Assembly (NCBI RefSeq): GCF_016808095.1
Contig: NC_068974.1
Location: forward strand, 32,596,825-32,660,824
Source of the DNA: Vigna angularis
Lineage: Eukaryota > Streptophyta > Magnoliopsida > Fabales > Fabaceae
Reading direction: 5' to 3'
Length of the DNA stretch: 64,000 nt
The translations under genes were made by a program, and so were the position numbers. The notes under the pieces were generated by a model, which was given only the letters and a program-made list of their open reading frames with translations, was not told the origin of the DNA and searched no databases. Position 1 is the stretch's first letter. The number at the start of each line of letters is the position of its first letter. Positions 7,719 to 29,419 of the stretch are shown piece after piece.

Positions 7719-10560
7719 ATATAACTCTATTATCATCAACTTAATTTAAGTCATTATTATCATATCAATCAACTTATAACAAATATTAATCATTCAACTC
7801 ATGCTTTAACACTAAACACAAACAAACCTACATGACTTTGGTTTTGGAGACATTCAACAAATATTAATCATTCAAATCACTTTCCAAACAATATACTAGT
7901 TTTGTAACATCCTAAAAATATAGCTATAAACTATACTTAAGGGTCCTTACATTACAATAAAATAGAACAGTTACAGAAAATAAAGCTAACTTACATTTAT
8001 CCTAAAATAACCATAAATTAAAAACTTTAGAGAAAATTATACTAATACAAATCACAAAAGTAGATCGCTCGGTCATACAAGAGGTGTATCAACCGAACAG
8101 TCCTACAACAGTGTATTACACCGAACGATCCTATACTAAAAGCAAAAACAAATACAAGACCGAACGGTCTTACTCTTAGCGGAAAACCCTTCTCTCCTGC
8201 CAACGCATGCTCCAGAATATCTTCTGCACACTCTACTCACACTCAAAGGGTAATCATTGCAAGGACAAGGAAGACCGAACGGACAACATGACAAGATAGG
8301 AAAATAAGGGTAAGCTAGTGTAATTTAATTAATTATGTAAACATTCATTTCATACAAACACATAAAATAATCATACTTATACAGAAATTACACCAACATA
8401 TTATAATCGACCACTTTCACTTTGACTGTCCAGACTGTATGAATTATGTAGCTACGATGTTCTTGCACTCGTGGAAAGGTAATCTGGAAAACCATCACAA
8501 TTACCATAGCTGGAAACCCAAGCCGCCACACGAGGTTAGCCCTTCATCCCTCATTGTAGCTGGAAACCCAAGTCTACACATGAGTTTAGTCCGATAGCTG
8601 GAACCCCAAGCTATACGCAACCAAGCCTCCTGCTATTCTCATTACATGCGCCACCATTCTCTACTTGAGACTCGGTGACCATTAGAATGTCAGGATGAAC
8701 GACAACTTAGTCTGACCATATTCATACTTTACAATCCCATAATCATTTCTGAGATATTCCTCCTTGGAACACTCTTTCATATCCATATAATACAAATCAC
8801 ATAATACTTATTCATATCCATAATATTCCATTCATATCACATTTTAAATACTATACTTCATTAACAACATATTTCCTCATCCATAACACCTTTAAATAAC
8901 TTCAAACCGAACATTAAAACAACATCATCATTGAGCACAACTAACTTGAAAATATCAACACTTATCATGAACAAAACTTGACGGTAGAACCCCTCCTATC
9001 TGCGAACATGACCGTACGGGATATTGTTTCCCTATGGTGAACTTGACTGAACGAAATATTATGAAAAAGTGAAACTCAAGCATGAGCCGAACGTCTTTTA
9101 AGCTAGACATCAGAACAACCACATTCTAAATCTAAAACAGAACACTTGAATCTTATACCGAACCCTTATGTTTTAAAACGAATACCAATGCCTTAGACCG
9201 ATCTCTATTGGCTTAGGTCGAACGCTATAACGAAGCTAAACACTTTAGTTGAACCAAAATACTTATTGTGAGACATAACGTTTTCTCGTTATTCATAAGC
9301 TATAACCAAACGATATTTAATAGACATAACCCAAAAGAATCGACTGAATACTATAGAACATCTATAATTAGACATAACCAAATACTAAAGCCCATAACCA
9401 AAATCTAAGAGCTTAGACCAAATACTACAAGCTTAGTCCGAACCCTCTAAGTTTCAATTTCAATTACATAATTTGGTAATATGATGAGACCGAGTGCTTA
9501 GTGCATCATCGAGCATTACTGAAACCGAGTGTTGGCATCTGGCCGAGCATTACCGAGACCGAGTGCTGGCATCTGGCCGAGCACTACCGAGACTAAGAGT
9601 TGGCATCTGGCCGAGCACTACCAAGACCGAGCAGTCACTAACAGTTACAGTATATGAAAGATCGAACGCTATATTAAATTAAAAATCAACACTAGACCGA
9701 GCGGTCATTAACTGAGAATCTACAATAGCATAACTCAGTTAAGACCGAGCACTAGAGAAAAGCCTAACAGTCAATTAAAGACCTTCAGCAAACTACAAAA
9801 TTCTGTAGAATAACTGCAGAATTATGATCACCGCCAAACCTTACCAATTTCACTCGGCCACTGAACCATAATCATACAGAAACTACAAACCTCATCAACA
9901 TAGCATATAATAGTCCACACCCAAAATCACCGAACATCAAACAATTAAATTTCACATACATGCAACATCATCAAACAACAATTTCATATATCAAAACTAA
10001 GTAATTAAATTAGCTAGCTTCCCTTACCTCTTAATCGGACCGAACAGCTTCAACAACTACAGACTCGATCACCACCAGAAATTCCTATGAACGCCTACAG
10101 TTCACCGATTGGTGAGAAAAGACCACTCAATGGGCCAAAAATGGAGTTAGAAAAGGGAGAAGAATGTTGAAGAACACATGCAACCAATAGGCTATGGTGC
10201 GTGTGACAAAAAACATCCATTCTAAGAAGAAAATGAACTTACCAACTCTAAGCTTGATTTTGATCGGTGGAAAACAATGATCTTGACTCCTAGTTTGCTT
10301 AAACAGTGGCTGGTTGAAGAAAAGAATGAAAGGGGATAAAAAATTTCTAGAGAGAAGGAGGAGAAAAAGGTAGTGGCTTGAGTTTTAGAGAGATGCATAT
10401 TTCTGAGAAAATGAGATGAGCTGTAGTTTGGAAAATTTTATAAAATGTTAAATCTCTTTTAGTTGAGACATTTGTCCCTTTCTTCCAGGTGTCATTTTCA
10501 GGGGTTTGACAAGTTTTGCTTAATTTATTTTACAAATGAAAAATGTTCATTTTTTGTTGA
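7719..10560. repeat. Retroelement-derived sequence, unresolved
   Basis: No open frame of note. From 7915 (TGTAACATCCTAAAAA, a typical plant LTR start) to about 10500 the sequence looks like a long LTR or LTR fragment. It repeats phrases such as AGCTGGAAACCCAAG (about 8510, 8560 and 8597) and has many ACCGAACGG words, the same word found in the LTRs of the neighbouring elements. A matching second LTR was not found, and the right end may lie beyond the nested 15-kb insertion. Confidence 0.45.
9503..9640. repeat. Short tandem repeat, about 34-bp unit
   Basis: Four imperfect units based on GAGCA(T/C)TACCGAGACCGAG followed by TGGCATCTGGCC. It lies within the older retroelement-derived block. Confidence 0.75.
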
Positions 10561-10599: not shown

Positions 10600-10848
10600 A
10601 ATACCGCAAATAATACAAATAATTACAATAATATTAATAAATAAATAAAAATGAGGTTAAGAATATCTCACTTAAATAAATAAATATAAATAAAAATGGG
10701 ATTATAACACCTCACTAAATAAATAAAAAATAAGAAGAATAGATAAATAAAAATGTGATTATAAACATTTCACTAATAAAATAATAATAATAAATAAATG
10801 AGAATGAGATTATAAACACCTCACGAATAAAATAAAAATAATAACAAT
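10600..10848. repeat. AT-rich minisatellite, left part
   Basis: Units of roughly 60-70 bp built from CACCTCAC(TAATAAAATAA), runs of AATAAATAAATAAAAATGAG and ATTATAAACA. The same units resume at 25858 after the 15-kb element, so the array was split by that insertion. Confidence 0.8.
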
Positions 10849-11447
10849 TGTCGCAACCGGAATCGCGACGGGACGACTATCCAATAAAAGAAACATATTG
10901 AAAAGAGATTTTGGAGTCGCCACCATAGTTTATTCTGGAAAACTACGAAAAAACCATAAAATGATAAGGCATGGTCAAAATGAACCAGATTCTTGGTTCG
11001 GGAGTCGGTTACGTGTAGGGAAGGTATTAGCACCCTACAACGCCTGCCTTAAGGCAGTACCTTTAACTAAATGCGCGAATGTGGATGTGGTTTTCAAAGT
11101 GTTTATCATTCCCTTGAAATAAAACTCTAAAGAAAAAAACAATATTTTTTAGCTTTTTGGGCCCGACAAGGATTGACCTTGCTCCTACGTATTCTCATGC
11201 AGAATGAGAAATCAGGGTTCCGTAGTTCATTTGAAATTGTTTGAGAAATTTGCTTGAAGAAAAATGATTTTGGATTTTTGGGGAAATGAACCTGACAAGG
11301 ACTGGCCTTGCTCCTACGTATCTCCACTTTTAATGGAGAATCAAGGATCACGTAGTTCTGGCTCAGGTTCTTTGGATGAGAATTTTGTTATTTTTTTGGC
11401 TTTTGAATATGTTGTATTTTTTTGGTATTTTAATATAATATTTAGAT

Positions 11448-11740
11448 TTTGCGTATTGAGCACTAGGCTGATGCGTACGATCGCACGAGTACTTATACGA
11501 CTTTTTTGGGTTTTTCTTTATTGTTTTGCGTAATGAGCACTAGGCTGATGCGTACGATCGCACGAGTACTCACACGGCTTTATTTTGTTTAAATTATTAT
11601 TTTGCGTAATAAGCACTAGGCTGATGCGTACGATCGCACGAGTACTCACACGGCTTTATTTTGTTTAATTTATTATTTAGGGTAATGAGTACTAGGCTGA
11701 TGCGTACGATCGCACGAGTACTCATACCGATATTTATTAT
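11448..11740. repeat. Four-copy tandem repeat inside the LTR
   Basis: Four copies, 70-85 bp apart, of a core GCACTAGGCTGATGCGTACG followed by ATCGCACGAGTACT. The core includes TGCGTACGATCGCA, close to a palindrome. The duplicate set lies at 23709-24001 in the other LTR. The role is unknown; repeated blocks in an LTR often sit in U3. Confidence 0.88.
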
Positions 11741-12009
11741 TATATTTTTTAAAATTTTTATATATTTTTGTCATTTTTTTGTTTATTTTATATTTCTATA
11801 TTTTCTTAAAATAAAAATAAAAACACAAGATATAGGGCTATGGGTTATATACAAGGGATTATATGTAGTAAAAATTTGATAATAACACAAAGCTAAAAGG
11901 TAAAGAAATAAAAGTCATCCAAATAACAATAAAGATAAAGAAACCAGGAGTGTGTAGCGCATGTTTGGTCCAAGCTTTGATGAAGAATATACGTACAGAG
12001 AGTGAAATC

Positions 12010-12750
12010 GGAGAGCACAAAGAATTGACTTGAACCTTTTCATTCCCATAGCTTCAGCCTTTCTTTTCCACTGACCTTTGTTGAATGTTTTATCTATAAT
12101 TCTTTCAACACAGCTCCAAACGTAGTGAAACGTTTTTTCATAGAAACTAGATCGAAAGTGCTTTCATTTGATATTTCACACTTATATTTTAGACCTCCGG
12201 ACTAGCTTCAGTATAACTTCGAAATCAGGTTTGGATGTTTCGTTTCTGGCACTGACCTTGTTTACTGTTTGGCTCATATTTTTTTTCACAGAACTCGAAA
12301 TGCAATGAAACTTTTTGGGTTGGATTCTAGACTCAAAGGGCTTTCATTTCAATACTCACACATAATTTTTGGACCCAGGGACTAGATGCAGTATGATTTC
12401 GAAATCAGGCTTGACTGTTTCGTTTCTGGCACTGACCTTGGTTTACTGTTTTGCTCATATCGTTTTCCACAGAGCTCTAAATGCAATGAAACTTTTTGGG
12501 TTGGATTCTAGACTCAAAGGGCTTTCATTTGAATACTCACACATAATTTTTGGACCCCTGGACTAGATGCAGTATGATTTCGAAATCAGGCTTGACTGTT
12601 TCGTTTCTGGCACTGACCTTGGTTTACTGTTTTGCTCATATCTTTTTCCACAGAGCTCTGAATGCAATGAAACTTTTTGGGTTAGATTCTAGACTCAAAG
12701 GGCTTTCATTTGAATACTCACACATAATTTTTGGACCCCTGGACTAGATG
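12010..12750. repeat. 181-bp tandem repeat inside the LTR
   Basis: Two near-identical 181-bp units (12369-12549, 12550-12730), one similar unit before them from about 12188, and a more diverged unit before that. The duplicate set lies 12261 bp to the right. Similarity falls towards the left end of the array, so the rightmost units are the newest. Confidence 0.88.
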
Positions 12751-13591
12751 CAGTTCAATTTTTACGAGATGAGTGGGGAAAGGATTTTAGTGTTTGGTCA
12801 TGATGATGGAAATCAATTTTGTGGGTGAAATAGGTTGATATTGGTTTGCTGAAGGGTGTAAGGAATACGGAGAGTGCAGAATAGGAAAGAGATTGAAAGC
12901 AATTGGGTTTCATATGAGGAAGAATCCATATCTATGAATTTTGCTTTGGAGGAATGAAGAGAATGAATGGAGAAAGAAACTCTCCCTCTGGTGCCGTGTG
13001 TGTATTGGTGATGAGAAATTAGGAATGGAAGAAAAAGGTGGCGGCTGGAAGGGTGTTGGTAATAGTGTTGGAGATGAAAAATGAAAGAAGAAAGATGAAG
13101 ATGATAGGTGCTCCTCCCCCCCTCAGTGATGGAGATTCAGTCTTCATTTGTAGGCTTCAGCACATGAGGAGTGTCGGCAGCTGTGGTTGGCTTGTAAGTG
13201 TCGGCCGATTTCATTGGAGCATTGTGGAAGTGGAGAAATTTGGTAAGGATTGTTGTTGAAGGTGGACACTTTCGGTGGTGGAAAACTGTTAATGGATGGG
13301 AATAAGTTGAGACCCACCTCTTAGTGCAGTATCATTCTAAAAACATATCCAGCATTACTCTTGAAAGCTCATGGGATCTTGATAAAAACTTCCACACGCA
13401 TATCACCTAATTCACGTTTTTTTTTTCAATCATTTTTTAATAAATAAAGTGAAAACTAATATATATATATATATATAAAAAAAATTAAAACATAAATAAA
13501 AAATATAAATATAAATAAAAATGAAAGAAAATAAAATAAGACAATAAAGTAAACCTATTATCGTCAAACCGGACGAAATTAGGTGTTGACA

Positions 13592-13604
13592 GCTGCCCCT
13601 CTTT
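13592..13604 (-). promoter_or_regulatory. Polypurine tract of the 15-kb element
   Basis: The minus strand reads AAAGAGGGGCAGC and abuts the LTR. This fixes the element's orientation as minus, in agreement with the primer site at 23090-23107. Confidence 0.8.
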
Positions 13605-13749
13605 ACCTAGCTATTACTGGGTAATATGAAAATTTGAGATTTTTGTATTATCAGGGTAAAAGCTAAGTAAAGAAAGAAACGCAAATTTCGTCCAGATTTC
13701 AAAATAAACAACAAACAACAAGGAATTAAAATGAACAAAGCCGAGAGAA

Positions 13750-14480
13750 TTGAGGTGTAACAACCTCGTGGAGGGTGTACCAACCCTATGGATGAAGTTC
13801 ATGAGGTGTAACAACCTCGTGGAGAGTGTCGTAACCCTGTGGAAGTGAATGAGGTGTCATAACCTCGTGGAGGGTGTCGTAACCCTATGGAAGTGAATGA
13901 GGTGTCGTAACCTCGTGGAGGGTGTCGTAACCCTATGGAAGTGAATGAGGTGTCGTAACCTCGTGGAGGGTGATCGTAACCCTGTAGAAGTGAATGAGGT
14001 GTCGTAACCTCGTGGAGGGTGTCGTAACCCTATGGAAGTGAATGAGGTGTCATAACCTCGTGGAGGGTGTCGTAACCCTATGGAAGTGAATGAGGTGTCG
14101 TAACCTCGTGGAGGGTGATCGTAACCCTGTAGAAGTGAATGAGGTGTCGTAACCTCGTGGAGGGTGTCGTAACCCTATGGAAGTGAATGAGGTGTCATAA
14201 CCTCGTGGAGGGTGTCGTAACCCTATGGAAGTGAATGAGGTGTCGTAACCTCGTGGAGGGTGTCGTAACCCTATGGAAGTGAATGAGGTGTCGTAACCTC
14301 GTGGAGGGTGATCGTAACCCTGTAGAAGTGAATGAGGTGTCGTAACCTCGTGGAGGGTGTCGTAACCCTATGGAAGTGAATGAGGTGTCATAACCTCGTG
14401 GAGGGTGTCGTAACCCTATGGAAGAGAATGAGGTGTCGTAACCTCGTGGAGGGTGTCGTAACCCTATGGAAGTGAATGAA
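13750..14480 (-). repeat. 48-bp tandem array with paired stem-loops
   Basis: About 15 units of 48 bp. Each is two 24-bp halves, and each half is an inverted repeat: GAGGTGTCGTAACCTC and AGGGTGTCGTAACCCT. Variants with an extra base (GTGATCGTAACCC) recur at 13971, 14116 and 14309, spacings of about three and four units, so blocks were duplicated. As 48 is a multiple of three, the minus strand stays open across the array with a 16-residue repeat. This looks like a by-product, not a real protein. The position beside the polypurine tract is the known hypervariable 3' UTR. Confidence 0.92.
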
Positions 14481-16880
14481 TTTGATTGCTGGGTTTGACC
14501 ATTGCCTTGTAGAGGGCCAAAATAGAAAGTAAAATCGTTTGATTGTTTTGAATTTGAAATTTGGATTTTGTTGAAATTTTGAGATGTTGAAAAAAAAAAA
14601 ATTATTTTGATTTTTTTATTTCTTGAGATAGAAATGAGTGTCCATTTTTTTTGAAATGAGAAACAAAATTTGCATAAGGTTGAAATTAAGAAACAAAGTG
14701 TTGCATTTTTGTACAAGTATTTGGATTTTGAAACCTCGATATGCAAAAGAAACATGGTTGATGTAAATTTTGAAATTTGGAGAAGAAAACTTTGATGCAT
14801 GTTGAATTTTTTTGTCTTTTTGAAGGAAGAAAATTTGATGAATATACATGGAGGCAAATTCAAAGTTGATGAAAATATGTACATGATATGATTGTTTGTA
14901 ATGGAAAACTATGATATATTTTTTCGAGTCAATTTGCTTTCTTTGAAATCATCAAATTTATGACGATTTAGACTTTCATTTTCCTTTTATGCAAAGGATG
15001 TCAAATTTTGAAGTCGAATGTTCAAAATGAAGCTTTTGTGCTGGACATTTCTTGGTGAAATACATAGCGTGTACATGCTTGATGTCAAGGGTTGGGACAA
15101 ATATGTGGAAGGATTTGGAAGGTACCGGGTTGGCTACTTGGGCCTCTTACTCCTTAAAACAGTTACACATGCCAATGTAAGGTAGTAGACTACTCAGGAG
15201 CTACTCCAGTTTGGAGCATGGTAAAAGTGTTGGTATGGACAAATGTATTTGTGAATTGTGAGGGAATAGGTCAGGAATCAGGGAGTGAGAATATCATGTG
15301 AGATTTACAAATTGCCCCAATTTTGGTGATGATGGATTTTTGAAGTTCGGGGCGAACCAAAAATCATGGGAGGCCCAACAAGGGATGCCCCAGTCTTTGT
15401 ATGAGCTTTGAATATTCAGATGAAAGATTAACAAAGACGCCCAATACTTTGAATGGGTCAAAACACATGAAAATCACAAAGTTGTCCCTAGTTTCGGGTA
15501 TGAGTCAATTAAGTGAGGTTCAAAAAGAGGTTGCCCCCCACTTTGGGTTTACGAATGATAAGATGGACAAAGCTCCAAAGTGTCTGCCCCTGTTTTGAGG
15601 GTGGATTTATGAATTTCAATGCGGACAAATCTGAGATGCCCAACAAGGGATGCACAAAGTTGCCCCATATTTTGAATGGGCCAAAAACACATGAAACTCA
15701 CAAAATTGCCTTAGTTTTGAAGAATGGGCGTATGTAACACTTACAATGTTGCCCCTTAGTTTGGGAATCGGGGAAAGAATTTGAACGGGATATGAATTTG
15801 TGATAGATATGGAAAGGATTGGCTTGAAATGATTGCCCCAATTGGCTTGATTTTCCTTCATATAATTTTGATCAATAGGGAGTTCCCTTCATCCGAGGAC
15901 ATTTATTTTTTCATCATTTTTCATTTTTTTTTTGACTGCATTGTTAGTCATTTTGTCTTGTCTGAAAATTAAGCTTTATGAAAATTTAAGTAACCATTAT
16001 TCAATCCGTGTGGACTTTTATTGGCTTGTAATGTGGCTTGGGCTAAAGGGTGTTGAAAGAAAGGATATAAAGGCCCAAATAAATGTTTGTGGATATTTGA
16101 AACAAAAGTTACCATTTGCACCTTGTATCAGTCATTCGTCAACACTGTTGACTTTCTTTGCTCTTTCTCAAATTTCATTCTTTGTTTGCCATCACTTCGT
16201 GATTCTTTCCACTTTTGCTTCACTTTTGAGGAATACTCTTCATTTGATCACTAAGTGTGTTCTTTTGCAATCTGAATCGACTTCTACTGTGATGGTAACC
16301 CTTGTTTGGGTAAATTTTGAAAAGAAATTTCTCATTGGCTCAAATTTGGTATCAAAGGATATATTTTGTTTTTTTGTTTTTGGATGAAGAAAGATGGCCA
16401 CACATCATTTCAAATTTTGATTGCTTTATTTTCAAAAGATTAATTAGGAGACAAGACTAAATGATCTCAACAAGAGTCATTCATTTTTTTTTATTTATTC
16501 ATTTTTTCCTTGTTTTTGTTTTGTCCTAACAGATTTAGGAATCTCCCAAATGAAGGCCAGTGGAGGCAACGGAAAATCTGCCCCAGTGTAAAACTTGGTG
16601 TTTATTATTTGGGCTCAAAGACATGATTGGGTCAATCTCTTAGTATAGCGAGGGCTGAAGGATGATGTTTTCAAGCAATGCACACACAGATATCTCTTAA
16701 GAATATGTGATTTAAACATTTGACTACAGGAGATTATGACATCCATTACCCTTTTTTTTTTGAAATCTCATAAAATGGATGATTTGCATAGAAAACAATT
16801 GACTCAACTTTTGCGTATTTTTTTGGTTTTATGCATGAAAAAATGATGATACTAGTTGAAAAGTAGATTTTTTTTGTTTT
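14481..16880. other. Interior of the 15-kb element, no coding recognised
   Basis: The sequence is T-rich. Between about 15320 and 15860 a diverged repeat of phrases such as TGAATGGG(T/C)CAAAA, ACACATGAAA and TTGCCCC recurs every 100-230 bp. The open frames here (for example 15932-16387) have no domain I recognise. In a typical Tat/Ogre element gag-pol would lie in this part; I see no trace of it. Confidence 0.6.
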
Positions 16881-16889
16881 TTTGTTTTT

Positions 16890-17520
16890 TTGTTTTTTTA
16901 TATTATTGGGCTTTGCGGACCAAACTGAAAACTAGATCTTGCGGACCGATGTGGAAAATGGGCTTTATGAGCCATTGGAAAAATTGGGATTTCTTGGCCA
17001 ATGGAAACTGGGCCTTGCGGGTCAGCATAGGAACTTAGCTTTGCAGGCCAGTATGGGAAATAGGTTTTGAGAGCTATTGTGGAAATTGAGATTTTTGGCC
17101 TTTATGGAAACTGGGCCTTGCGGGTCAGCATGGAAGCTGAGCTTTGCAGACCAATATGGGAAATGGGCTTTGTGAGCCATTGGAAAAATTGGGATTTCTT
17201 GGCCAATGGAAACTGGGCCTTGCGGGTCAGCATAGGAACTGGGCTTTGCAGGCCAGTATGGGAAATAGGTTTTGAGAGCTATAATTGGGATTTCTCAGCC
17301 AATGTGGAATCTGAGATTTTTCGGCCAATGTGGATTTTTTTTTCGGCCAATGTGGAAAATAGGCTTTGTGAGCCATTGGGGAAATGGGATTTCTTGGCCC
17401 ATGGAAACTGGGCCTTGCGGGTCAGCATGAGAACTGAGCTTTGCAGGCCAGTATGGGAAATAGGCTTTTGAGAGCTAAAATGGAAACAAGGGCTTGGGAA
17501 CCAGTGCAGAAACTAGACTT
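16890..17520. repeat. Complex tandem repeat with GGCT...AGCC arms
   Basis: Sub-units of 25-30 bp (TGGAAACTGGGCCTTGCGGG, TTTGCAGGCCAGTATGGGAA, GGGCTTTGTGAGCCATTGG) are arranged in larger blocks. For example, 16993-17075 resembles 17208-17285 and 17398-17478. Several sub-units carry short inverted arms such as GGCT-TTGTG-AGCC. Confidence 0.82.
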
Positions 17521-17989
17521 GGTGAGTAATGCAAAAAATTGATATGAGAAAATTTGATTTAGAAAAAACGTTCGAAAAATAAAAATGTTGTTTTTTTTTT
17601 GTTTTATTCATTTACACAATGTGAAAAACATTAAACATATTTGAATTTTTTTTAGTGTTTTTATCTTTTAGAAATAGGATCTAAGGAGAAATATGCATGT
17701 AATGGGCTGAATTGGGCTAAAAAAGTTTGAACATTTTCAAAAGAATTATTTTGATTCGATTTTTTTTGTTTTTTACTTTCCGACACGGGAAAATCCAGAT
17801 CGGATCGAACCTAAGGAGAAGTGACATAGAAGGAATTTGGACTTACCAGGCACATTGACCCAATGGATCAGATGACCTGAGCCGAGTGAACTTGACACAA
17901 GAAGATGACAAAAAAAACAATTTTTTTCATTGTTTATGGAACAAGCTAAAAGAAATTCATTTTTTTCATTTTTTGTTATGAGAGGATTT

Positions 17990-18690
17990 CACAAGATTAA
18001 ACTAAAGAAAATTTTGCAACACTACTAGATTGAATGGGCCCAACACTATTCTTTTACAATCATGACAAAATCTTCAGACAAGGGTCTGAATTCCTTTATT
18101 TTCATTTTTTTGCACACTGTTCACACAAATGAAAAGGGAAATTATGAATTGAAAACACAAAATCTACATAAACATGCATTTTTATTTTTCAGAAATTCAG
18201 ATGGACTGATTCAAAAGAAACCGCATATGACAACGGGGCCCAATGGGCTCAAAAACTGTTCATCTTTTATTCTCAGATTTTTTTTACTACAAATTCAAAG
18301 AAAATCACACAGGACAATTTGAACAAATGTACTAAACATCATCCAATAGCAAAAATGCGAAAACAAAATATTTTTGACATATTTTCAAAAGAAGTAAACT
18401 CGAGAGAAAACCACGACGGCCATTGGGCCTAATGGGCTCGAGCACTGTTCCCTTTTTTCAGTATATTTTGTTTTATTTAGATTTACTCAAAATGTAGTAG
18501 AAGAAGGAATAAAATCAAACAAAATAGTGTGATGTGAAATTACAAACATGCCAAAATAATTCTTCACTCAAATTTATACTTCAGAAGAATTGGGTTCAAA
18601 GAAGGTTAACATGACAATGAGGCCCAATGAACCTGAAAAATGTCCTTTATCATGCAAATGAAAAACAATTTTGAACACTTCAAATTTTAC
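17990..18690. repeat. Degenerate repeat of about 180-200 bp
   Basis: A core like GGGCCCAATGGGCTC followed by an A/C-rich phrase and ACTGTTC recurs near 18036, 18237, 18421 and 18621. The copies are strongly diverged, so this array is older than the 48-bp array. Confidence 0.65.
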
Positions 18691-18946
18691 ATCACTCCAT
18701 TTATTATTTTTTTGAAAATTTTCTATTTATCACATTTTTTATATTATGTTTTATTATTATTTTGTTTTTGGTAAAATCGGATCATCTAAGAAGTCTTGTA
18801 TTGGGCCGGATTGACCCAACAAAACCCTACCCGTTTTCAGATTTTCATTTTTCATTTTTTTTCTTTTTGAATTCTAAAACACCGGGACTGTGGATGTCCC
18901 CGGTAGCAATGACCGGAACTGTGGACATAGTGGCAGAACCTTTGGC

Positions 18947-19804
18947 TATAAATGGGCTACTCTTTGGCTTCTGAGCGACATTTCGCGATCTGCCTACTCT
19001 CTCTCTATCCTTCTCTTTCTCCCTCTTCTCTCTCTTCTCTCTCTTCCTTGAGTGTCTGGACTTCTGCGAGGCTCCTCCGTCCCCGCCTTCCACAGCGTCC
19101 GTGCCTTCCGAGGAGCTTCCGTGTGCCTTCCATTTCCAGGTAAGTCTTCTGAACTCTTAATCTTTCCCCCCTTTCCTTTAAGTTTTTTCGTTCTTCCTTT
19201 TACGCTTTTCTGTTCTTGCATTTCTTTCTCGTTCCCTCTTCAATTTCCCTACTTTCCTTTCCCTCTTCCCTTTCTGTTTTCTTTTATTTCCGCTTTCTGC
19301 TCTTCTTTTCTTTTATGTTTTTCGTCTTTTACTTTCTGTTTTTTTTTTCTGTTTTATGTTCAATCTTCTCCTCTTCAATTTTTTCATTTTTCTAAACTTA
19401 AAACACTTAAAAACACAACTGTCTTAAACTTAAGGGGTATATAGGCTGGAAACCAGACGTTAATCTCCCTTTGATTGAAGGTATGGCAGAGACAATCGGG
19501 TAGAACAACGCCACGTACCCCATAAAAACAGAAAACTTAAAAAGAGAACTTATTTGTATGGACATGGACCATATGGACAAAGACAAATGGACAAAAGGAC
19601 ATAGATCCGTTTAGGACCCTCTTGCAAGGACCGTGAAACAGATCCGAGACCAGACACTGAAATAACAAAGACTGACCGGACAAAATAAACTAAAAGGAAA
19701 CAAAAGCGAATAAAGAAAACACAGAAAAAAACTTTTTTTTTTTTTTGTGCTTTTGTTTTGTTTTTGTTATTTTTATTTTTTATATTTTTTTTTCTTTGTT
19801 TCAG
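18947..19804 (+). promoter_or_regulatory. Promoter, 5' UTR exon and intron 1 of the captured homeobox gene
   Basis: A TATA box (TATAAAT, 18947-18953) is followed about 30 bp later by a probable start region near 18978 and a pyrimidine-rich leader with CTCTCTCT runs. The leader ends in TTTCCAG|GTAAGT (exon end 19139, intron start 19140). The matching acceptor TTTGTTTCAG ends at 19804, 18 bases before the start codon. A leader intron in this place is common in plant regulatory genes. The start site is estimated from the TATA spacing. Confidence 0.65.
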
Positions 19805-19822
19805 AAAACTTAGAGAGGAAAG

Positions 19823-20393
19823 ATGAACGAGATGGAGATGGAGAGGTACACCAGTCAGCGGTGGAGACCTACTGACGATCAGGTCAAGATGATGACCAGA
19901 ATCTACAACTTTGGGGTCACACACCCAAGCAGAGCGCAAGTTGTCGAGATCGCGTCTCGACTAAGGACCTTCGCAGATGCCAGCGAATACAACGTGCACT
20001 GCTGGTTCAACAATCATGGCAATCGGGTCAGGCGCTGGCAAGCGGAGATAGACCCCACTGGCACTCAGTTTTCACAACTGCCGCTATACATGTATGGTAA
20101 GCCTCCTGATCACCTCCATCTTTTTTTTTTTTTTTTGAAAATATTCTCCTCCTCTTATTATTGAAATTTTTTTGTTTTGTTTTGTTTTTTTTTTTTTTTT
20201 TTGGAAAGAATACGACTGGGTGATCATGAGGGCGCCGAGGCTGCTGGACTTGTTCCCCGTTCCGATCATCATTGACGACGACAGGGACACACGACAAATC
20301 CCTCCACCCATGCTTCTCACATTCCGGACCAGAGCTCCTTCGACGGAGCTCTCCCTCAGACCACCGCAACCAGCTCGGGAATACTTTCGCTGA
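19823..20393 (+). CDS. WUSCHEL-type homeobox (WOX-like) protein, two coding exons, captured in retroelement
   Basis: WOX proteins are plant nuclear transcription factors that control stem-cell and meristem fate. I propose exons 19823-20096 and 20209-20393 with a 112-bp intron (GTAAGC ... T-rich tract, AAAG). One base (G) before the intron and two (AA) after it make a codon, so the frame is kept and the product is 152 residues. The homeodomain (about 10-74) begins SQRWRPT and has the extended WUS-type spacing and the helix NVHCWFNNHGNRVRR (57-71). W61, F62 and N64 are the core homeodomain residues; Q before the invariant N is replaced by N63. A WUS-box LLDLFPVP lies at 103-110, and an EAR-like TELSLRP at 137-143, 9 residues before the end. 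Both mark the WUS clade. It is much shorter than WUS but near WOX5/WOX7 in size. The gene lies antisense to the retroelement. Whether it is expressed cannot be seen. Confidence 0.82.
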
Positions 20394-20700
20394 TTTTTTT
20401 TTATTATTTATTTTTTTTTTTTTTATGGTCTGTAATATTAACGATCACCAGTGATCGAAACTTGAACAATCTTTTATTTGCTTTTGTTTATTTTCTGCTT
20501 TTTTTTTTTATTTGAATTTATGACCTTGCTTTTCTCTGTTATATTTGCTTTATTTTTTTTTTGCATTTTTATCTTATTTATCAAATGTTAAGATCGGATG
20601 AGTGTATCCGACCTTACTGTAATTTCCTGTTCCGATGATGAAATGAAATGGGTTTTTATGCTTTTCTTTTTATTTTAGTCAAAACAAGATTTTACCACAA
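20394..20700 (+). other. Probable 3' UTR of the homeobox gene
   Basis: T-rich sequence follows the stop codon. It contains a short hairpin (CGGAT-GAGTGT-ATCCG, near 20594-20609) and then AATGAAATG-type words near 20637 that could act in polyadenylation. The end of the transcript is not defined. Confidence 0.4.
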
Positions 20701-21088
20701 TTATGTATAAGAAAAAAAAAGCTAAAATAATTTATTTACAAGAAAATAAGGAAAATGGACTTCGAATAAAATGAGATCCGTCATGAGAAAAATTTTTGAA
20801 CCATTATGCGTATGAGACAATGAAATGGGAAGAGAAGAACAAAGAACTCGTAAAACAAATTGAACAGTTTGAAATTTTGATGACCCCCTTTTTTTTGTTT
20901 TTACAAATTAATAAAATAAAAGAAAGAAAAGAAAAAGAAAACACAACGTAGTTCAAATTCTCTAGTCAGAAATTATAAAGTTGTGAAAATATTGCCCCGG
21001 TATAATTTGGAAATTAACACGAAACGGAGTCAATAAGGTGGTTCATCATTCAGAAGTTCCCAAAATGCGAGACATAGGAATTCTTGGT

Positions 21089-21470
21089 CAACCATCGCAG
21101 GTTTTAGTCATCACATTCTTCATTTGTATGATTAGTTTCTCACAGTAATTGAGGAATGTTTCGATCCCCTTAGGTGGGTCAGAGAGTGGAAATGCAGACT
21201 CAGCATCAGCTAATAGCTTAGGAACATCTTCAATGACTTCATTGATGAGAGAAGCTAAATTGCGAGAGATTCCTCTTTCAACTCCTTTGTAACTCGTCCT
21301 TCTTCAATGACATATTCCTTCATCTGACTCATCAATCTTTTATGTCTCCTTTTAGCTGAATGGCAACATTCCTTCTCTAATTTTGTTATTGCTGCTTCTA
21401 TCCACTGCTCATCATTTTGAAATTTCTTTTCGCAATTTGGGTAAGGGAAATTAATTACAACTTGATTGTC
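21089..21470 (-). pseudogene. Degraded element ORF (possibly Ogre-type ORF1), frameshifted
   Basis: The minus strand is open from 21470 to a stop at 21255-21257 (72 codons, rich in K, E and R; ends KELKEESLAI). A second frame overlapping the end continues from about 21273 to a stop near 21089 (begins GISRNLASLINEVIED). The two parts read as one helical, charged protein broken by a frameshift. The location, just inside the 5' LTR and leader, is where Ogre-like elements carry an ORF1 of unknown function upstream of gag. I cannot confirm the family from memory. The coding look ends abruptly on both sides. Confidence 0.5.
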
Positions 21471-21589
21471 TTAACCCTTTCTGCGATTCATTGGCTAAGG
21501 GAAACTTTCATTAACAGTTCATGATCTTGGGCCTTTCTTTGAAGCGAACAACATTGCCTCAAGTGTCTTTAACTTGATGAAACATTTCA

Positions 21590-21905
21590 GCAAAAGTCGG
21601 GCCAGGCGTCCCTTCTGTCTCGCGCCCGGGCGCGAGACTCTCTGGAAAAGTCGAAAGTGGACGAGGGTCCACTAAAATCGGGACGAGCGTCTTCTTCTCT
21701 GGCCTGGACGAGCGTCCGAAATCTTGAACGAGCGCTTTCTTATCACACTGGACGAGCGCCCTCTTGCTGACTGAGCGTCCATTTCTGCCTGGACGATCGT
21801 CCTTTCCGGACGTCCTCTTCTCACGTCATCCAGACGAGCGTCTTCTTCAGAGAGCTAGACGAACGTTTACTTGGCGTCACTCCCGGCGACGAGCGTTTCT
21901 GCATG
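21590..21905. repeat. GC-rich minisatellite with palindromic GGACGAGCGTCC units
   Basis: About nine imperfect copies of a unit around (T)GGACGAGCGTCC(T) sit within a stretch far richer in GC than its surroundings. Many copies are inverted repeats (GGAC-GAGC-GTCC) and one is a perfect palindrome (GGACGATCGTCC). At 21617-21638 there is a perfect 22-bp palindrome with half-site GTCTCGCGCCC. Confidence 0.85.
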
Positions 21906-23089
21906 TGGTTGGTTCATCTCTATAATTTGTTGGAGATTCTTCCAAGCTCAATTTTAGCTCCCGCAATGACATATAATCTGCGATCTATGCTGTCAAGGGA
22001 CACACTATTTAACTTGTTCTTCGTTTAAACTCGCACAAAGTTGCGCCCATTCATTTGCTCCTTTCATATTTGGTTTGCACTGCAATAGCTCGTCCATGGG
22101 GTACGGGAAATTTAAGGCGTCTCCAATCTCATGGGAAATGAATCACATATACAACACTGGTAGACAACATAACATCTTTCCCCCTTAAAGTTCGTAACAA
22201 CGATTAAGGGTCCCATAAACTTCAGCCAGGACGGGACATGGGTATATTGCCCGATTTAGTTGTATAGAGCTTTGGCCTCAAGACGTGCATTTAAGATTTG
22301 CCCAAATCCTTCCCTTCTGACAAACTCACCAAATTCTTATGCCCCTCGACTCAAATTCCATGTTAATTTCCATTTTTTATCATAAGGATTCAATCACAAA
22401 TTTATAATTTCTCGACTAGAATCCACAAAATGTGACAAGACTATAAAGAAAAACATGAGCTAAGAAAGAAGGAAAAAGCAGAAAGAAAAAAAAAATGTAT
22501 AAAGAGACATGATGATATATACAATGTGCGTGATTTTTATTAAGCAAACATGAGGGTTGTAGGAATACACATTTCTCCCTTTTGTGCCTTATCAAAGATT
22601 GAATGACAAAAGTTCTAAGGCCAAATATATGCACTAACAAGGATAGCTTCCTAATGCTTAAATCAGGCCACCAGAGCTATGGCTCTTTTCACTGTCTCTC
22701 CACAACAGTCAGAGTAATCAACTAGATGCGGAGACACAAATGAAGAGAACAGACTCTAGCTGGGGTTCTCACGATAGCCAGACAGGAAGTACATCCCAGA
22801 GTGACACCGCTACACAACCCCTCTATTTCTAAGTTGCGCTCAGACCCGGGTATAGGGCCTCACTCATGATATGCATAATGTGTAGAGGGAGATTATAATG
22901 TAAAATAACAATTGCAAAAAATAAACACAAATAAGTAGGAACAATTATTTCAAACATAAATAAAAAGTAAAAGAAACTCACATGTAATTATTCCAAATAT
23001 TAAACATAGATAAAGACAAAGGGAATAAAAACACAAAGAAAAACCACATCGAATTCGCTTATCTAATTAAATGGCCTGACTCTCTGACG
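21906..23089 (-). other. 5' leader of the 15-kb element
   Basis: Non-coding as far as I can see. There may be more ORF1-like relic on the minus strand near 21950-22330, but stops break every frame. The last 250 bp before the primer site are AT-rich with runs of AAATAAA. Confidence 0.5.
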
Positions 23090-23107
23090 TCCCCAGTGGA
23101 GTCGCCA
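23090..23107 (-). promoter_or_regulatory. Primer binding site of the 15-kb element
   Basis: The minus strand reads TGGCGACTCCACTGGGGA, two bases from the LTR end. This is the primer-site sequence I associate with Tat/Ogre-lineage elements (tRNA-Arg type). The tRNA assignment is from memory; the position and TGG start are clear. Confidence 0.75.
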
Positions 23108-23109
23108 TC

Positions 23110-25857
23110 TGTCGCAACCGGAATCGCGACGGGACGACTATCCAATAAAAGAAACATATTGAAAAGAGATTTTGGAGTCGCCACCATAGTTTATTCTGGA
23201 AAACTACGAAAAAACCATAAAATGATAAGGCATGGTCAAAATGAACCAGATTCTTGGTTCGGGAGTCGGTTACGTGTAGGGAAGGTATTAGCACCCTACA
23301 ACGCCTGCCTTAAGGCAGTACCTTTAACTAAATGCGCGAATGTGGATGTGGTTTTCAAAGTGTTTATCATTCCCTTGAAATAAAACTCTAAAGAAAAAAA
23401 CAATATTTTTTAGCTTTTTGGGCCCGACAAGGATTGACCTTGCTCCTACGTATTCTCATGCAGAATGAGAAATCAGGGTTCCGTAGTTCATTTGAAATTG
23501 TTTGAGAAATTTGCTTGAAGAAAAATGATTTTGGATTTTTGGGGAAATGAACCTGACAAGGACTGGCCTTGCTCCTACGTATCTCCACTTTTAATGGAGA
23601 ATCAAGGATCACGTAGTTCTGGCTCAGGTTCTTTGGATGAGAATTTTGTTATTTTTTTGGCTTTTGAATATGTTGTATTTTTTTGGTATTTTAATATAAT
23701 ATTTAGATTTTGCGTATTGAGCACTAGGCTGATGCGTACGATCGCACGAGTACTTATACGACTTTTTTGGGTTTTTCTTTATTGTTTTGCGTAATGAGCA
23801 CTAGGCTGATGCGTACGATCGCACGAGTACTCACACGGCTTTATTTTGTTTAAATTATTATTTTGCGTAATAAGCACTAGGCTGATGCGTACGATCGCAC
23901 GAGTACTCACACGGCTTTATTTTGTTTAATTTATTATTTAGGGTAATGAGTACTAGGCTGATGCGTACGATCGCACGAGTACTCATACCGATATTTATTA
24001 TTATATTTTTTAAAATTTTTATATATTTTTGTCATTTTTTTGTTTATTTTATATTTCTATATTTTCTTAAAATAAAAATAAAAACACAAGATATAGGGCT
24101 ATGGGTTATATACAAGGGATTATATGTAGTAAAAATTTGATAATAACACAAAGCTAAAAGGTAAAGAAATAAAAGTCATCCAAATAACAATAAAGATAAA
24201 GAAACCAGGAGTGTGTAGCGCATGTTTGGTCCAAGCTTTGATGAAGAATATACGTACAGAGAGTGAAATCGGAGAGCACAAAGAATTGACTTGAACATTT
24301 TCATTCCCATAGCTTCAGCCTTTCTTTTCCACTGACCTTTGTTGAATGTTTTATCTATAATTCTTTCAACACAGCTCCAAACGTAGTGAAACGTTTTTTC
24401 ATAGAAACTAGATCGAAAGTGCTTTCATTTGATATTTCACACTTATATTTTAGACCTCCGGACTAGCTTCAGTATAACTTCGAAATCAGGTTTGGATGTT
24501 TCGTTTCTGGCACTGACCTTGTTTACTGTTTGGCTCATATTTTTTTTCACAGAACTCGAAATGCAATGAAACTTTTTGGGTTGGATTCTAGACTCAAAGG
24601 GCTTTCATTTCAATACTCACACATAATTTTTGGACCCAGGGACTAGATGCAGTATGATTTCGAAATCAGGCTTGACTGTTTCGTTTCTGGCACTGACCTT
24701 GGTTTACTGTTTTGCTCATATCGTTTTCCACAGAGCTCTAAATGCAATGAAACTTTTTGGGTTGGATTCTAGACTCAAAGGGCTTTCATTTGAATACTCA
24801 CACATAATTTTTGGACCCCTGGACTAGATGCAGTATGATTTCGAAATCAGGCTTGACTGTTTCGTTTCTGGCACTGACCTTGGTTTACTGTTTTGCTCAT
24901 ATCTTTTTCCACAGAGCTCTGAATGCAATGAAACTTTTTGGGTTAGATTCTAGACTCAAAGGGCTTTCATTTGAATACTCACACATAATTTTTGGACCCC
25001 TGGACTAGATGCAGTTCAATTTTTACGAGATGAGTGGGGAAAGGATTTTAGTGTTTGGTCATGATGATGGAAATCAATTTTGTGGGTGAAATAGGTTGAT
25101 ATTGGTTTGCTGAAGGGTGTAAGGAATACGGAGAGTGCAGAATAGGAAAGAGATTGAAAGCAATTGGGTTTCATATGAGGAAGAATCCATATCTATGAAT
25201 TTTGCTTTGGAGGAATGAAGAGAATGAATGGAGAAAGAAACTCTCCCTCTGGTGCCGTGTGTGTATTGGTGATGAGAAATTAGGAATGGAAGAAAAAGGT
25301 GGCGGCTGGAAGGGTGTTGGTAATAGTGTTGGAGATGAAAAATGAAAGAAGAAAGATGAAGATGATAGGTGCTCCTCCCCCCCTCAGTGATGGAGATTCA
25401 GTCTTCATTTGTAGGCTTCAGCACATGAGGAGTGTCGGCAGCTGTGGTTGGCTTGTAAGTGTCGGCCGATTTCATTGGAGCATTGTGGAAGTGGAGAAAT
25501 TTGGTAAGGATTGTTGTTGAAGGTGGACACTTTCGGTGGTGGAAAACTGTTAATGGATGGGAATAAGTTGAGACCCACCTCTTAGTGCAGTATCATTCTA
25601 AAAACATATCCAGCATTACTCTTGAAAGCTCATGGGATCTTGATAAAAACTTCCACACGCATATCACCTAATTCACGTTTTTTTTTTCAATCATTTTTTA
25701 ATAAATAAAGTGAAAACTAATATATATATATATATATATAAAAAAAAAAATTAAAACATAAATAAAAAATATAAATATAAATAAAAATGAAAGAAAATAA
25801 AATAAGACAATAAAGTAAACCTATTATCGTCAAACCGGACGAAATTAGGTGTTGACA
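23110..25857 (-). repeat. 5' LTR of the 15-kb element (right copy)
   Basis: 2748 bp, matching 10849-13591 with one substitution found and a 5-bp difference in the AT/A tract near 25725-25750. It carries the same internal arrays. The element's own promoter should lie here, reading towards lower coordinates. Confidence 0.93.
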
Positions 25858-26345
25858 ACAATAAATAAATAAAAATAAAATTATGAATATCTCATTTAAT
25901 AAAATAATAATAATAATTAAATAAAAATGAAGCTATAAATGCCCCACTTAATAAAATGATAATGATAAATAAATAAATAAGTGAATATAAATACCTCACT
26001 AATAAAATAAAAATAATGACAATAAATAAATAAAAATAATATTATAAACACTTCACTAATAAAATAATAATAATAACAAATAAATAAAAATGAGGTTATA
26101 AATATATCACTAATAAAATTAAAATAATAATAATAAACAAATAAAAATAAGTGATCAACACCTCACAAATAAATAATAATAGTAAATAAATAAGGCTATA
26201 AACACCTCACTAATAAAATAAAGTAAATAAAATTAAATTATAACACCTCACTACTAAAATAGTAATAATAAATAAATAAAAATCAGATTATAAACATCTT
26301 ACTAATAAAATAATAATAATAATAAATAAATAAAAACAAAAGACA
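25858..26345. repeat. AT-rich minisatellite, right part
   Basis: Continues the array of 10600-10848, starting with the ACAAT target duplication. Units contain CACCTCACTAATAAAATAA and AATAAATAAATAAAAATGA with ATTATAAACA, about eight diverged copies. Confidence 0.82.
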
Positions 26346-27943
26346 CCAAAATAAAATAAATAAATCAATAAATATTGATAAGTAAAAAATATAAAATGAT
26401 AAATTGTTGCTTCTCTCCCATTAAAACAACTTGTTCAAGTAATACTAATTCTCAATTATAGATTGAATAATTTTTTCAAACTACTTTAATTTTTTTTATC
26501 AATAGAGAAAGAAAATAGAAATGGTGAAGAATGAGTAAAATATATCGGTGAATACAACTACCAAAACAATGTAATTTCGCTTCTTTTCTTAACATTATAT
26601 ACAAAAAATTATGTTATTATTTTGATATTATTTTATTTTCTATACATTTACAAGTATGTAATAGTAAAACCACAATTTACTATTTAAATATTATAAGAGT
26701 ATTTTACATTTCACTTGTTGACTTTTTATAATAGTTGTTCCTTATCCCAAATACAAAAATTACTAATTTTTAAATGTAAATCTAAATTATCAGAGTGAAA
26801 AATATTATTTTAAAAACATGCCGTAAAATTTTTATTTGTATGTTGATCATTAATGAAGTTGGTAGACGAATTATTATCAAAATAACTCAAAATAGAAAAT
26901 AAGTTACATTAGTTTAAACTGTAATTTTTTTTCTTTAACCACAAATCTTTAAATAGAAATCTCCACTATCAAAATGAGGTATTATATCTTATGAACTTGG
27001 AATAAAATTTTTATCACAATCTAATGATTAACGAAGTAAGAATAAATTTTTTATCAAAATAATTCATAACTAGACAATATGTTGAGATCTAACTTTTACA
27101 CTAAAACTCAAGAATTATTTTTCTTAACATAAACTTTTATTTGTAAATCTCATTCATAATAGGAGAGAACAATACTTTAATAATACTTTATAAAAATTTC
27201 AATATAGATTTATAAAGATGTGACGACAATTTTACTTAAATAAATTATGATTAAGAACTAGTTAACACCTCAAAATCTTCTTTTAATTTTTTATAAAACT
27301 CTTTTCAATAATTTCTCAATATACTTATAAAAACGTATTAATATAAATAAAATTAAAGATAATTAACATAAAATAAAATGTTACAATTATACATAATACA
27401 TAAGATATTATTTATATGATAAATATTTGAATGTTACAATCAAAAATTATTTTTTTATAAGATAGCCAACCGTTTATATAGTATAAATTTATTAATTAAA
27501 ACAAAAAAAATCAAATATTCTCCAAAATTAAATTTATTTTTTATTAAATTTAAATTATGAAATTTAAATATGATTAATAATTCGTATGTTAGAATACCAA
27601 TAAAAATATTTGGAAAACCAAATACATCGTGGACTAAAATTTAATAACACACTATATTACATATTCACAATAATTAAAAGAATAAAAAATAGTTCTAAAA
27701 TGGATAAAGAAAATTCCCTGGTTTAAATTTGATCTACACTTTGAAGGAAGAACCACATTCAAAATTTCACGACATGGACACTCGCAAATAAAATAATTAG
27801 AAGGACCAAAATATAATTTTGAAAAACAAGGCAGATTAATACAATCACCCTGCGGTCACAATGATCTCAATGTAAAACTGAAGGCACTATCTAAAGCTTC
27901 AACGAAAGGTGCGTTTGAGAGAAAATCCGAAAAAGCCCCTAAA
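26346..27943. other. AT-rich intergenic sequence and PPR gene upstream region
   Basis: No gene visible. The 100 bp before 27944 (from about 27850) rise in GC and probably hold the PPR gene's promoter end and 5' UTR; no clear TATA box is seen. Confidence 0.6.
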
Positions 27944-29419
27944 ATGTCCCAGAAGCGTTTTCGTCTCCACCTCCTCCCTTTGTCGAAGAAGCATCGTCAG
28001 TTTCCGCTTCCACGTAACGTGGTTACCGTCTGTGACGGAGTTCAACAGCCCTCAGACGCCACCATAGCCAATCTGGTCCTCGAATCAGACCCACTCACTC
28101 TCTCCGAGGCCCTATTCAAGCCCACAATCCAATGGGCGCCCGAGCTCGTGAACAAGGTCCTGAAGCGCCTCTGGAACCACGGGCCCAAGGCCCTTCAATT
28201 CTTCAAACACCTGGACCGCCACCCTGCCTACATCCACTGCGCCTCGTCGTTCGACCACGCCATCGACATCGCGGCCCGCATGCACGACTACAACGCCGCA
28301 TGGGCCTTAGTAGGCCGCATGCGATCTCTCCGCCGCGGCCCAACTCCCCGTACCTTCGCCATCCTCGCCGAGCGCTACGCCGCTAACGGAAAACCCCACC
28401 GTGCCGTCAGAACCTTCCTCTCCATGCACGAGCACGGTTGCCGCCAGGACCTGAACTCATTCAACACCGTCCTCGACATCCTCTGCAAATCGAAGCGCGT
28501 GGAAATGGCGCACACCTTGCTCAAAACGTTCCGATCCAGATTCAAACTCGATTGCGTGAGCTACAACATAATCGCAAACGGTTATTGCTTAATCAAACGC
28601 ACCCCGATGGCGTTGAATGTTCTGAAGGATATGGTGCAGCGAGGGATAAACCCTACGATGGTCACCTACAACACATTGCTGAAAGGGTATTTTCGGAGTA
28701 ATCAGATTAAGGAGGCTTGGGAGTTTTACTTGGAGATGAAGAAGAGGAAGTGCGAGATTGATGTTGTGACTTACACGACTGTGATTCACGGGTTTGGGGT
28801 GGCGGGTGAGGTTAAGAAATCTCGTAGGGTTTTTGATGCGATGGTGAAGGAGGGTGTGGCTCCTAGTGTCGCCACGTGTAATGCGTTGATTCAGGTTTTG
28901 TGTAAGAAGGATAGCGTGGAGAATGCGGTGGTGGTTTTTGAGGAGATGATGAGGAAGGGGTTGTGTGTGCCGAATGTGGTTACTTACAACGTTGTTATCA
29001 GAGGTTTTTGTCATGTTGGGGACATGGAGAGGGCATTAGGGTTTATGAGAAGAATGGGGGAACATGGTTTGAGGTGTTCTGTTCAGACTTATAATGTTGT
29101 GATTAGGTACTTTTGTGATGCTGGGGAGATTGAGAAGGGTTTGGAGATGTTTGAGAAGATGAGGGATGAGCCTTGCTTGCCCAATTTGGATACTTACAAT
29201 GTTCTGATCAGTGCTATGTTTTTGAGGAAGAAATCGGAGGATTTGGTGGTGGCTGGGAAATTGTTGATGGAGATGGTTGATAGAGGGTTCTTGCCGCGGA
29301 AGTTTACTTTCAATAGGGTGTTGAATGGACTTGTTATTACTGGGAATCAGGATTTTGCCAAGGAGATTCTGAGAATGCAGAGCAGGTGTGGTCGTATTGT
29401 TCGGCGTTTGAAATTGTGA
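27944..29419 (+). CDS. OTP43: P-class pentatricopeptide repeat protein, OTP43-like, 491 aa
   Basis: PPR proteins bind organelle RNA one repeat per base. The product resembles Arabidopsis OTP43 (At1g74900), needed for trans-splicing of mitochondrial nad1 intron 1 and so for complex I. I recognise OTP43-like phrases: ASSFDHAIDIAARMH, SFNTVLDILCKSKRVE, TYTTVIHGFGVAGE and the ending GKLLMEMVDRGFLPRKFTF. The N-terminus is rich in R, K, H and L with almost no acidic residues (first 25 residues), as in a mitochondrial presequence. About ten PPR units run from residue 130 to 470 (TFAILAERY, SYNIIANGY, TYNTLLKGY, TYNVVIRGF, TYNVLISAM). There is no E, E+ or DYW domain, so editing is not expected. Length is close to the Arabidopsis protein (about 480). 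The gene is intronless, as most PPR genes are. The first 550 nt use C-ending codons; the rest use G/T-ending codons. Orthology is from memory. Confidence 0.88.
   Translation: MSQKRFRLHLLPLSKKHRQFPLPRNVVTVCDGVQQPSDATIANLVLESDPLTLSEALFKPTIQWAPELVNKVLKRLWNHGPKALQFFKHLDRHPAYIHCASSFDHAIDIAARMHDYNAAWALVGRMRSLRRGPTPRTFAILAERYAANGKPHRAVRTFLSMHEHGCRQDLNSFNTVLDILCKSKRVEMAHTLLKTFRSRFKLDCVSYNIIANGYCLIKRTPMALNVLKDMVQRGINPTMVTYNTLLKGYFRSNQIKEAWEFYLEMKKRKCEIDVVTYTTVIHGFGVAGEVKKSRRVFDAMVKEGVAPSVATCNALIQVLCKKDSVENAVVVFEEMMRKGLCVPNVVTYNVVIRGFCHVGDMERALGFMRRMGEHGLRCSVQTYNVVIRYFCDAGEIEKGLEMFEKMRDEPCLPNLDTYNVLISAMFLRKKSEDLVVAGKLLMEMVDRGFLPRKFTFNRVLNGLVITGNQDFAKEILRMQSRCGRIVRRLKL

Follow-up and report, generated by a model that had tools for sequence, protein, structure and literature searches.

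A stretch of 64,000 nucleotides of the Vigna angularis genome (contig NC_068974.1, positions 32,596,825 to 32,660,824; the window) carries a WUSCHEL-related homeobox (WOX) gene inside a long terminal repeat (LTR) element of 15,009 bp, which occupies positions 10849-25857 on the minus strand. As the initial annotation of the window had proposed, two coding exons spliced over a GT-AG phase-1 intron give an open reading frame (ORF) of 152 amino acids; the same junction (20096/20209) is found, by alignment, in P0002 and P0004, two publicly available gene predictions for V. angularis. The proposed WUS-type homeodomain was recovered by profile search (Pfam Homeodomain, PF00046, E=8.4e-7, above the curated cut-off), which found no other Pfam domain in the protein, including the TRP28 domain PF04195. 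The closest solved chains by sequence are WUSCHEL (E=3e-10) and STENOFOLIA (E=4.3e-10). A structure model of the close relative P0004, built from an alignment of 26 proteins, comprises three helices (residues 18-29, 37-47 and 55-76), with block pLDDT of 79-92 across residues 11-60 and lower values elsewhere (mean 62.9, pTM 0.40), and its best PDB matches are the DNA-bound homeodomains of STENOFOLIA and WUSCHEL (STF-HD and WUS-HD). The sequence, together with the fold of this relative, confirms that the window gene is a WOX-type homeobox gene. A chance ORF is ruled out by the Pfam, WUSCHEL/STENOFOLIA and fold matches. The two C-terminal motifs were correctly located in the initial annotation but are imperfect: the WUS-box consensus is TLxLFPx, from which LLDLFPVP departs at one position by loss of the first T, and the EAR-like ending STELSLRPP is only a partial LxLxL.

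The gene lies wholly between the LTRs, and the claim of a young 15-kb element holds. The element is flanked by the target-site duplication (TSD) ACAAT, and its LTRs (10849-13591 and 23110-25857) differ over 2748 aligned columns by one mismatch and one 5-nt gap. LTR ends of the form TG..CA, a 5-bp TSD, a polypurine tract (PPT) and a primer-binding site (PBS), all general features of LTR elements, are present (Table 1). Wrong LTR annotation is ruled out by the TSD, PBS and PPT, and by LTR pairs elsewhere in the genome. Judging by its letters, the PBS is probably of tRNA-Arg type. If 1.3e-8 substitutions accrue per site and year, the single mismatch in 2743 bp dates the insertion to roughly 14,000 years ago. 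Because the PBS lies beside 23110 and the PPT beside 13591, the element reads on the minus strand and the plus-strand WOX gene is antisense to it, a relation absent from the initial annotation. The further claim that the element lacks gag-pol stands for pol, since two pol proteins from elsewhere in the genome gave no tblastn match in the whole window at 1e-8. For gag the evidence of absence is looser: the interior has 53 open frames of at least 60 aa, and the 10 that were scanned matched no retroelement family.

The window gene is one of many. A genome search with exon 1 returned 621 candidates, of which the best 150 all span 91/91 residues at 91-100% identity; 148 of these 150 have no internal stop, an intact share that is biased upward by the ranking on similarity. 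The gene is present in many copies, at least 150 of them with a full-length exon 1, in line with the copy-making carrier of the initial annotation. Protein searches retrieved 57 and 69 proteins, all from V. angularis as far as names are given, and a profile of the C and D types described here brought in two more species, V. umbellata and V. radiata, with a single record apiece, beneath which stood ordinary WOX2-like proteins of other plants. We refer to the window type as type A; type B (144 aa) is known from protein records only, and the loci read as 10-kb stretches are of types C and D because the Pfam ranking behind their choice favours these two. The succession of homeodomain, WUS-box-like motif and EAR-like end is common to types A, B and C/D, and the intron was seen in types A, C and D. 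Most type C/D relatives retain TLDLFPIP together with VELTLRL or VELSLRL. All element-type proteins are short, about 144-153 aa. In an unrooted homeodomain tree of 40 rows and 66 columns, a single branch (support 100/99) parts 20 element-type sequences from 20 V. angularis WOX sequences, the latter at loci that we label provisionally as WUS, WOX2, WOX5 and others. Of the element-type rows, nine come from protein records (four of type A, five of type B) without genome placement; ten D rows were omitted, and an LTR or pol is on record for only a minority of the D rows. As far as an unrooted, short alignment that names no donor can tell, the tree fits a single uptake. Ten public records from V. 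angularis, V. umbellata and V. radiata that bear the label WUSCHEL-related homeobox 1, 2, 4, 5, 7 or 8 (P0048, P0059, P0062, P0063, P0068, P0071, P0074, P0076, P0079 and P0081) fall by sequence within the element-type subfamilies, without every one being placed in an element. The size of the WOX family in Vigna may be overstated, and public annotations may count element genes as host expansion. Same-strand pairs of type-A WOX genes, mostly 15.3-22.5 kb apart (C1:23997568, C3:7267957, C4:4637165, C4:5006239, C4:34575515, C2:42052978 and others), are possibly tandem elements sharing LTRs.

Copies with an adjoining pol place the family within a known lineage. At the C-type locus L031, a frame of 1149 aa holds reverse transcriptase (RT), RNase H, a second RNase H (aRH, RVT_3; aa 589-696, between RT_RNaseH and integrase), and zinc-binding and core integrase domains, and is followed by the WOX gene in antisense. 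In the relevant passages of PMC6317226, the order RT-RNaseH-aRH-integrase is that of Ogre/Retand elements and aRH between RNase H and integrase marks the Tat lineage of Ty3/gypsy; L031 has both. At locus L027 the end of an L031-type pol (96% identity) again precedes an antisense C-type WOX gene, and the window element is colinear with L031 3' of pol, with 71-93% identity in pieces. A genome search with RT gave 4556 candidates, of which 113 were scored. These lie within 15 kb of 15 of the 150 type-A WOX places, and in all 15 the WOX gene is antisense to and downstream of a Tat-type RT, at about 4.0-4.2 kb from the RT start. By comparison, 500 random RT placements brought on average 1.17 and at most 5 WOX genes near an RT, with no condition on orientation or distance. 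Eight of the 66 element-type places of the Pfam list have an RT within 15 kb; seven of them fit the antisense-downstream rule, two of these being also in the type-A list.

The LTRs of the window element were followed in the same manner. Of 1600 candidates from a search with the window LTR, 40 were scored and compared with 176 WOX places (the 150 exon-1 places and 26 of the 66 element-type places of the Pfam list). They form 12 same-strand pairs, of which five enclose a listed WOX gene (4/11 without the window's own pair), the same gene between LTRs at other loci being what the initial annotation had suggested to look for. A WOX gene lies within 13 kb of 11 of the 40 LTR places, in each case (11/11) in the window's relative orientation, where random placement gave a mean of 0.40 and a maximum of 3; 9/38 remain when the window's own pair is set aside. 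One pair, C3:37738974-37773534, with its LTRs 34.6 kb apart, encloses both a type-A WOX gene and an RT, the 3' LTR lying beyond WOX by position, and thereby ties the window LTR family to Tat-type pol. At the pol-linked copy C2:42052978, a 2-kb stretch at the guessed place of the 3' LTR matched neither the window nor L031 at a threshold of 1e-10, a null that is uninformative because element lengths differ. Taken together, these linkages make WOX a regular inhabitant, as an antisense extra ORF, of a Tat-lineage family, of which the window copy is a pol-less member. Three other loci show different surroundings. L048 (3-3950, plus strand) encodes a pol of 1316 aa, about 33% identical to that of L031 and without a Pfam aRH match, directly upstream of an antisense C-type WOX gene, and represents either nested elements or a second, non-Tat lineage carrying WOX. 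At L040, direct repeats of 1.54 kb (47-1587 and 7444-8974, 90% identical) flank a D-type WOX gene, with a PBS-like TGGCGTCGTTGCCGG that differs from the window's; no TSD was seen at these repeats, which are possibly those of a second WOX-carrying lineage. Long inverted repeats of 98-99% identity, unlike ordinary LTRs, flank the C/D-type WOX gene of L045 (634-2467 and 7841-9598).

The ratio of nonsynonymous to synonymous substitution (dN/dS, omega) between element copies, a comparison suggested in the initial annotation, was estimated by the Nei-Gojobori method with codon bootstrap for exon 1 of 9 A, 11 D and 5 C loci, excluding the D loci L039, L043, L045 and L047, whose exon 1 is broken. Omega is 0.13 in type A (0.07-0.23; dS 0.29), and 0.11 after dropping the sole copy with a listed RT nearby; it is likewise 0.13 (0.08-0.21) in type D. 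In wrong-frame controls on the same DNA, omega was 1.19-1.72 in types A and D; in type C it was 0.70-1.09. Full-length exon 2 was compared in 8 D and 4 C loci, as exon 2 of L027 (LDLYPIP) was missed by the search pattern and that of the D loci L034, L035, L039, L045, L046 and L047 was short or not found; between C and D its omega is 0.19. Synonymous differences in the homeodomain between A and C/D are saturated. Judged from these substitution patterns, WOX is under purifying selection in types A and D, and type C alone is indecisive.

Noncoding blocks around the gene are also shared. In an upstream alignment of the window and seven other WOX loci, the promoter-like block is common to all eight; its end reads TTTGGCTATAAATGGGCT at L040, at L045 and in the window, with related letters elsewhere (TACAAAT in L031, L048 and L027), and the GTAAGT donor of the predicted intron in the 5' untranslated region (UTR) is present in 8/8 rows. 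The palindromic motif GTAATATTAACGATCA-N4-TGATCGA sits 38 bp 3' of the stop codon in the window. With a pattern that tolerates a few variants, it was matched in the window and 13 loci among 28 element-type WOX loci, eight of which are short type-A stretches that end near the motif's position. Its arms are constant or nearly so, and N4 differs (CCAG, GAAA, CTAA, TTAT, CTTG). Both the promoter-like block and the 3' motif are common to A and C/D despite the saturated synonymous sites.

Table 1. Coordinates of the WOX gene, its predicted regulatory parts and the surrounding LTR element in the window.
Feature	Position	Strand	Remarks
Target-site duplication ACAAT, left copy	10844..10848	.	
3' LTR, 2743 bp	10849..13591	-	Element sense is the minus strand
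Polypurine tract	13592..13607	-	GGTAAAGAGGGGCAGC in element sense; adjoins 3' LTR
Tandem array, 48-bp unit, ~15 copies	13751..14479	.	Adjoins 3' LTR
Promoter-like block of the WOX gene	18881..18953	+	Ends in TATA box TATAAAT (18947-18953); similar block in 7 other aligned WOX loci
Predicted 5'-UTR intron	19140..19804	+	GTAAGT...TTTCAG; donor in all aligned rows
WOX coding exon 1, homeodomain	19823..20096	+	Antisense to element; ORF reading, Pfam, structure-sequence search
Phase-1 intron, GT-AG	20097..20208	+	ORF reading
WOX coding exon 2, stop included	20209..20393	+	WUS-box-like LLDLFPVP and EAR-like STELSLRPP
Palindromic 3' motif GTAATATTAACGATCA-N4-TGATCGA	20432..20458	+	Conserved arms, variable N4
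Primer-binding site	23089..23107	-	TGGCGACTCCACTGGGGAC, 2 nt from 5' LTR
5' LTR, 2748 bp	23110..25857	-	
Target-site duplication ACAAT, right copy	25858..25862	.	

Outside the element, the window holds a second retroelement (4425-7569), in which 300-bp repeats at 4490 and 7270 (95%) flank a frame of 432 aa (4969-6264) with a Retrotrans_gag domain, and a PPR open frame of 540 aa from stop to stop (27797-29416, plus strand) about 2 kb past the element.

At the level of sequence, the comparisons establish that a Tat family contains a gene built like an antisense transcription unit, which is under selection in types A and D. We consider it reasonably probable that WOX belongs to a Tat-lineage (Ogre/Retand-like) Vigna family as an antisense extra ORF, that it derives from a host WUS-clade WOX gene and that it serves the element; the gene is probably the element's tool and not a stray passenger. 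The interpretation in the initial annotation is supported in part. The idea that this particular element captured the gene did not hold up, as WOX is old in the family: it is on a separate branch, is under purifying selection in type A and sits at the same spot in 15/15 pol-linked type-A copies. The same place in these type-A copies and the one element-type branch rule out recent transduction by the window element. Instead, a host WUS-clade WOX gene would have entered the family together with its introns, on the simplest view a single time. Because WOX is antisense to the element, its splice sites would be unused on the sense genomic RNA, and the introns would persist through retrotransposition. 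From its own promoter the gene would give rise to a transcript and thence to a small nuclear DNA-binding regulator serving the element, most likely by control of element transcription or by making meristem or germline-lineage cells permissive. Pol-less elements such as the window copy would keep WOX and use gag-pol supplied in trans. It is tempting to go one step further and propose, tentatively, that a stem-cell transcription factor of the host was domesticated by the element family to be its own accessory regulator, such that each intact copy, pol-less ones included, makes WOX from the antisense promoter, and that the protein binds the element (e.g., at CGATCA-N4-TGATCG or at LTR repeats), biases cells towards a meristem-like state so that new copies reach the germ line, or both. 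If true, this would be a plant transposon using a stem-cell regulator, for which access to soma or germline is the natural hypothesis. Selection at the level of the element is a simpler reading of the data than the spreading of developmental regulators envisaged in the initial annotation.

Several observations weigh against a service to the element. Omega of type C exon 1 (0.40, 0.23-0.79) overlaps one of its wrong-frame controls (0.70, 0.38-1.59), and exon 2 is weakly constrained within D (0.56, 0.30-0.99) and C (0.50, 0.23-1.56). The copies used for dN/dS came from score-ranked lists, which favours low dN. Between seven of the 12 window-type LTR pairs lies no WOX place out of the 176, and these pairs may be gene-free elements or contain unlisted copies, and at C4:28026337 an RT lies 13.8 kb off on the other side. 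Finally, for 135 of the 150 type-A copies no RT of the list lies inside 15 kb, and among the 15 type-D loci read, exon 1 is broken in 4 and just 9 gave exon 2 at full length. The type-A copies with no RT listed nearby may reflect action in cis or hitch-hiking of recent copies; an intact WOX in such copies points to action in cis or to very recent derivation, which are not separable here. Their large number and the broken D loci also suit the alternative that a host WOX gene was transduced and is merely copied along, useless to the element, with a low omega that reflects recent copies or few sources; passages of PMC7264820 document genes transduced into LTR elements of plants. We hold this to be unlikely, since type-A dS of about 0.3 at an omega of 0.12-0.13 indicates that the constraint lasted over a good deal of divergence within the family, and since the gene keeps one fixed spot in the pol-linked type-A copies and non-coding blocks are conserved too.

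It is more doubtful still that the copies were co-opted as a dispersed developmental or stress WOX family kept by host selection. The product resembles a complete WUS-clade regulator, some relatives are annotated as numbered WOX genes, as listed above, and a contribution to coastal adaptation is left open in the passage concerned of PMC10714607. However, host selection on one or a few loci could hardly hold omega low in many scattered copies, and the constraint is present in both A and D. A role of the antisense RNA rather than the protein, through double-stranded RNA or small-RNA control of the element, is the least probable, for although antisense transcription has been proposed to control LTR elements (in passages of PMC7264820) and the promoter-like block and 3' palindrome are common across subfamilies, the codon-position bias and an omega of about 0.12-0.13 in A and D show selection on the protein sequence itself, which already disfavours it.

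The occurrence of WOX genes in LTR elements is already in print, briefly and for other Vigna species; as far as our searches of the literature reach, the architecture, lineage and selection described here are new. According to a 2023 meeting report, WOX genes flanked by identical LTRs and TSDs underwent a burst in V. marina and V. riukiuensis, with >1000 copies in the latter (K. Naito, PMC10714607). This WOX-LTR family is very probably the same as that of V. angularis; the passage that reports it is silent on orientation, lineage, pol linkage, regulatory parts and selection, and V. angularis is not mentioned there. An expansion of the WOX family in V. reflexo-pilosa is not tied to elements in the relevant passages of PMC10357499. 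The element-type genes share with the WUS-clade WOX genes (WUS, WOX2, WOX3, WOX5, STF) the homeodomain fold, the WUS-box TLDLFP in most C/D members and the EAR-like end, and their intron lies about 30 codons past the homeodomain WF, as in some host WOX loci when compared by eye. They differ from them in their separate branch, their small size and their residence in mobile elements. Orchids offer another case in which a functional domain of host origin became fixed in a large gypsy lineage: their Ty3/gypsy elements carry an AlkB N6-methyladenosine (m6A) demethylase ORF (passages of PMC9289625). That product is an RNA demethylase, whereas the Vigna product is a predicted transcription factor, and "Homeo" and "WUSCHEL" have no occurrence in the main text of that paper. 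The closest parallels are the antisense extra ORFs of Grande (gene23), RIRE2, Retand, with its TRP28 ORFs, and PvRetro13, as described in passages of PMC11963269 and PMC7264820, in the main texts of which "homeo" and "WUSCHEL" have no occurrence either. Like these, the Vigna family combines a reverse ORF between pol and the 3' LTR, tandem repeats and a proposed nuclear or DNA-binding role, and the own promoter of the reverse ORF in Grande corresponds to that predicted for Vigna WOX. The antisense placement downstream of pol applies to the 15/15 pol-linked type-A copies and to the C-type loci L031 and L027, and a 3' LTR beyond the gene was located by position for the pair C3:37738974-37773534; in the window, orientation alone can be assessed. 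The antisense extra ORFs of Tat elements have been puzzling, as their domains reveal little of function. Where those of Grande, RIRE2, Retand and PvRetro13 encode TRP28, SMC, other or unnamed domains, according to the same passages, the Vigna ORF encodes an intron-split homeodomain that is traceable to a host transcription factor family, and its known host relatives, binding sites and target genes make the question of function directly testable.
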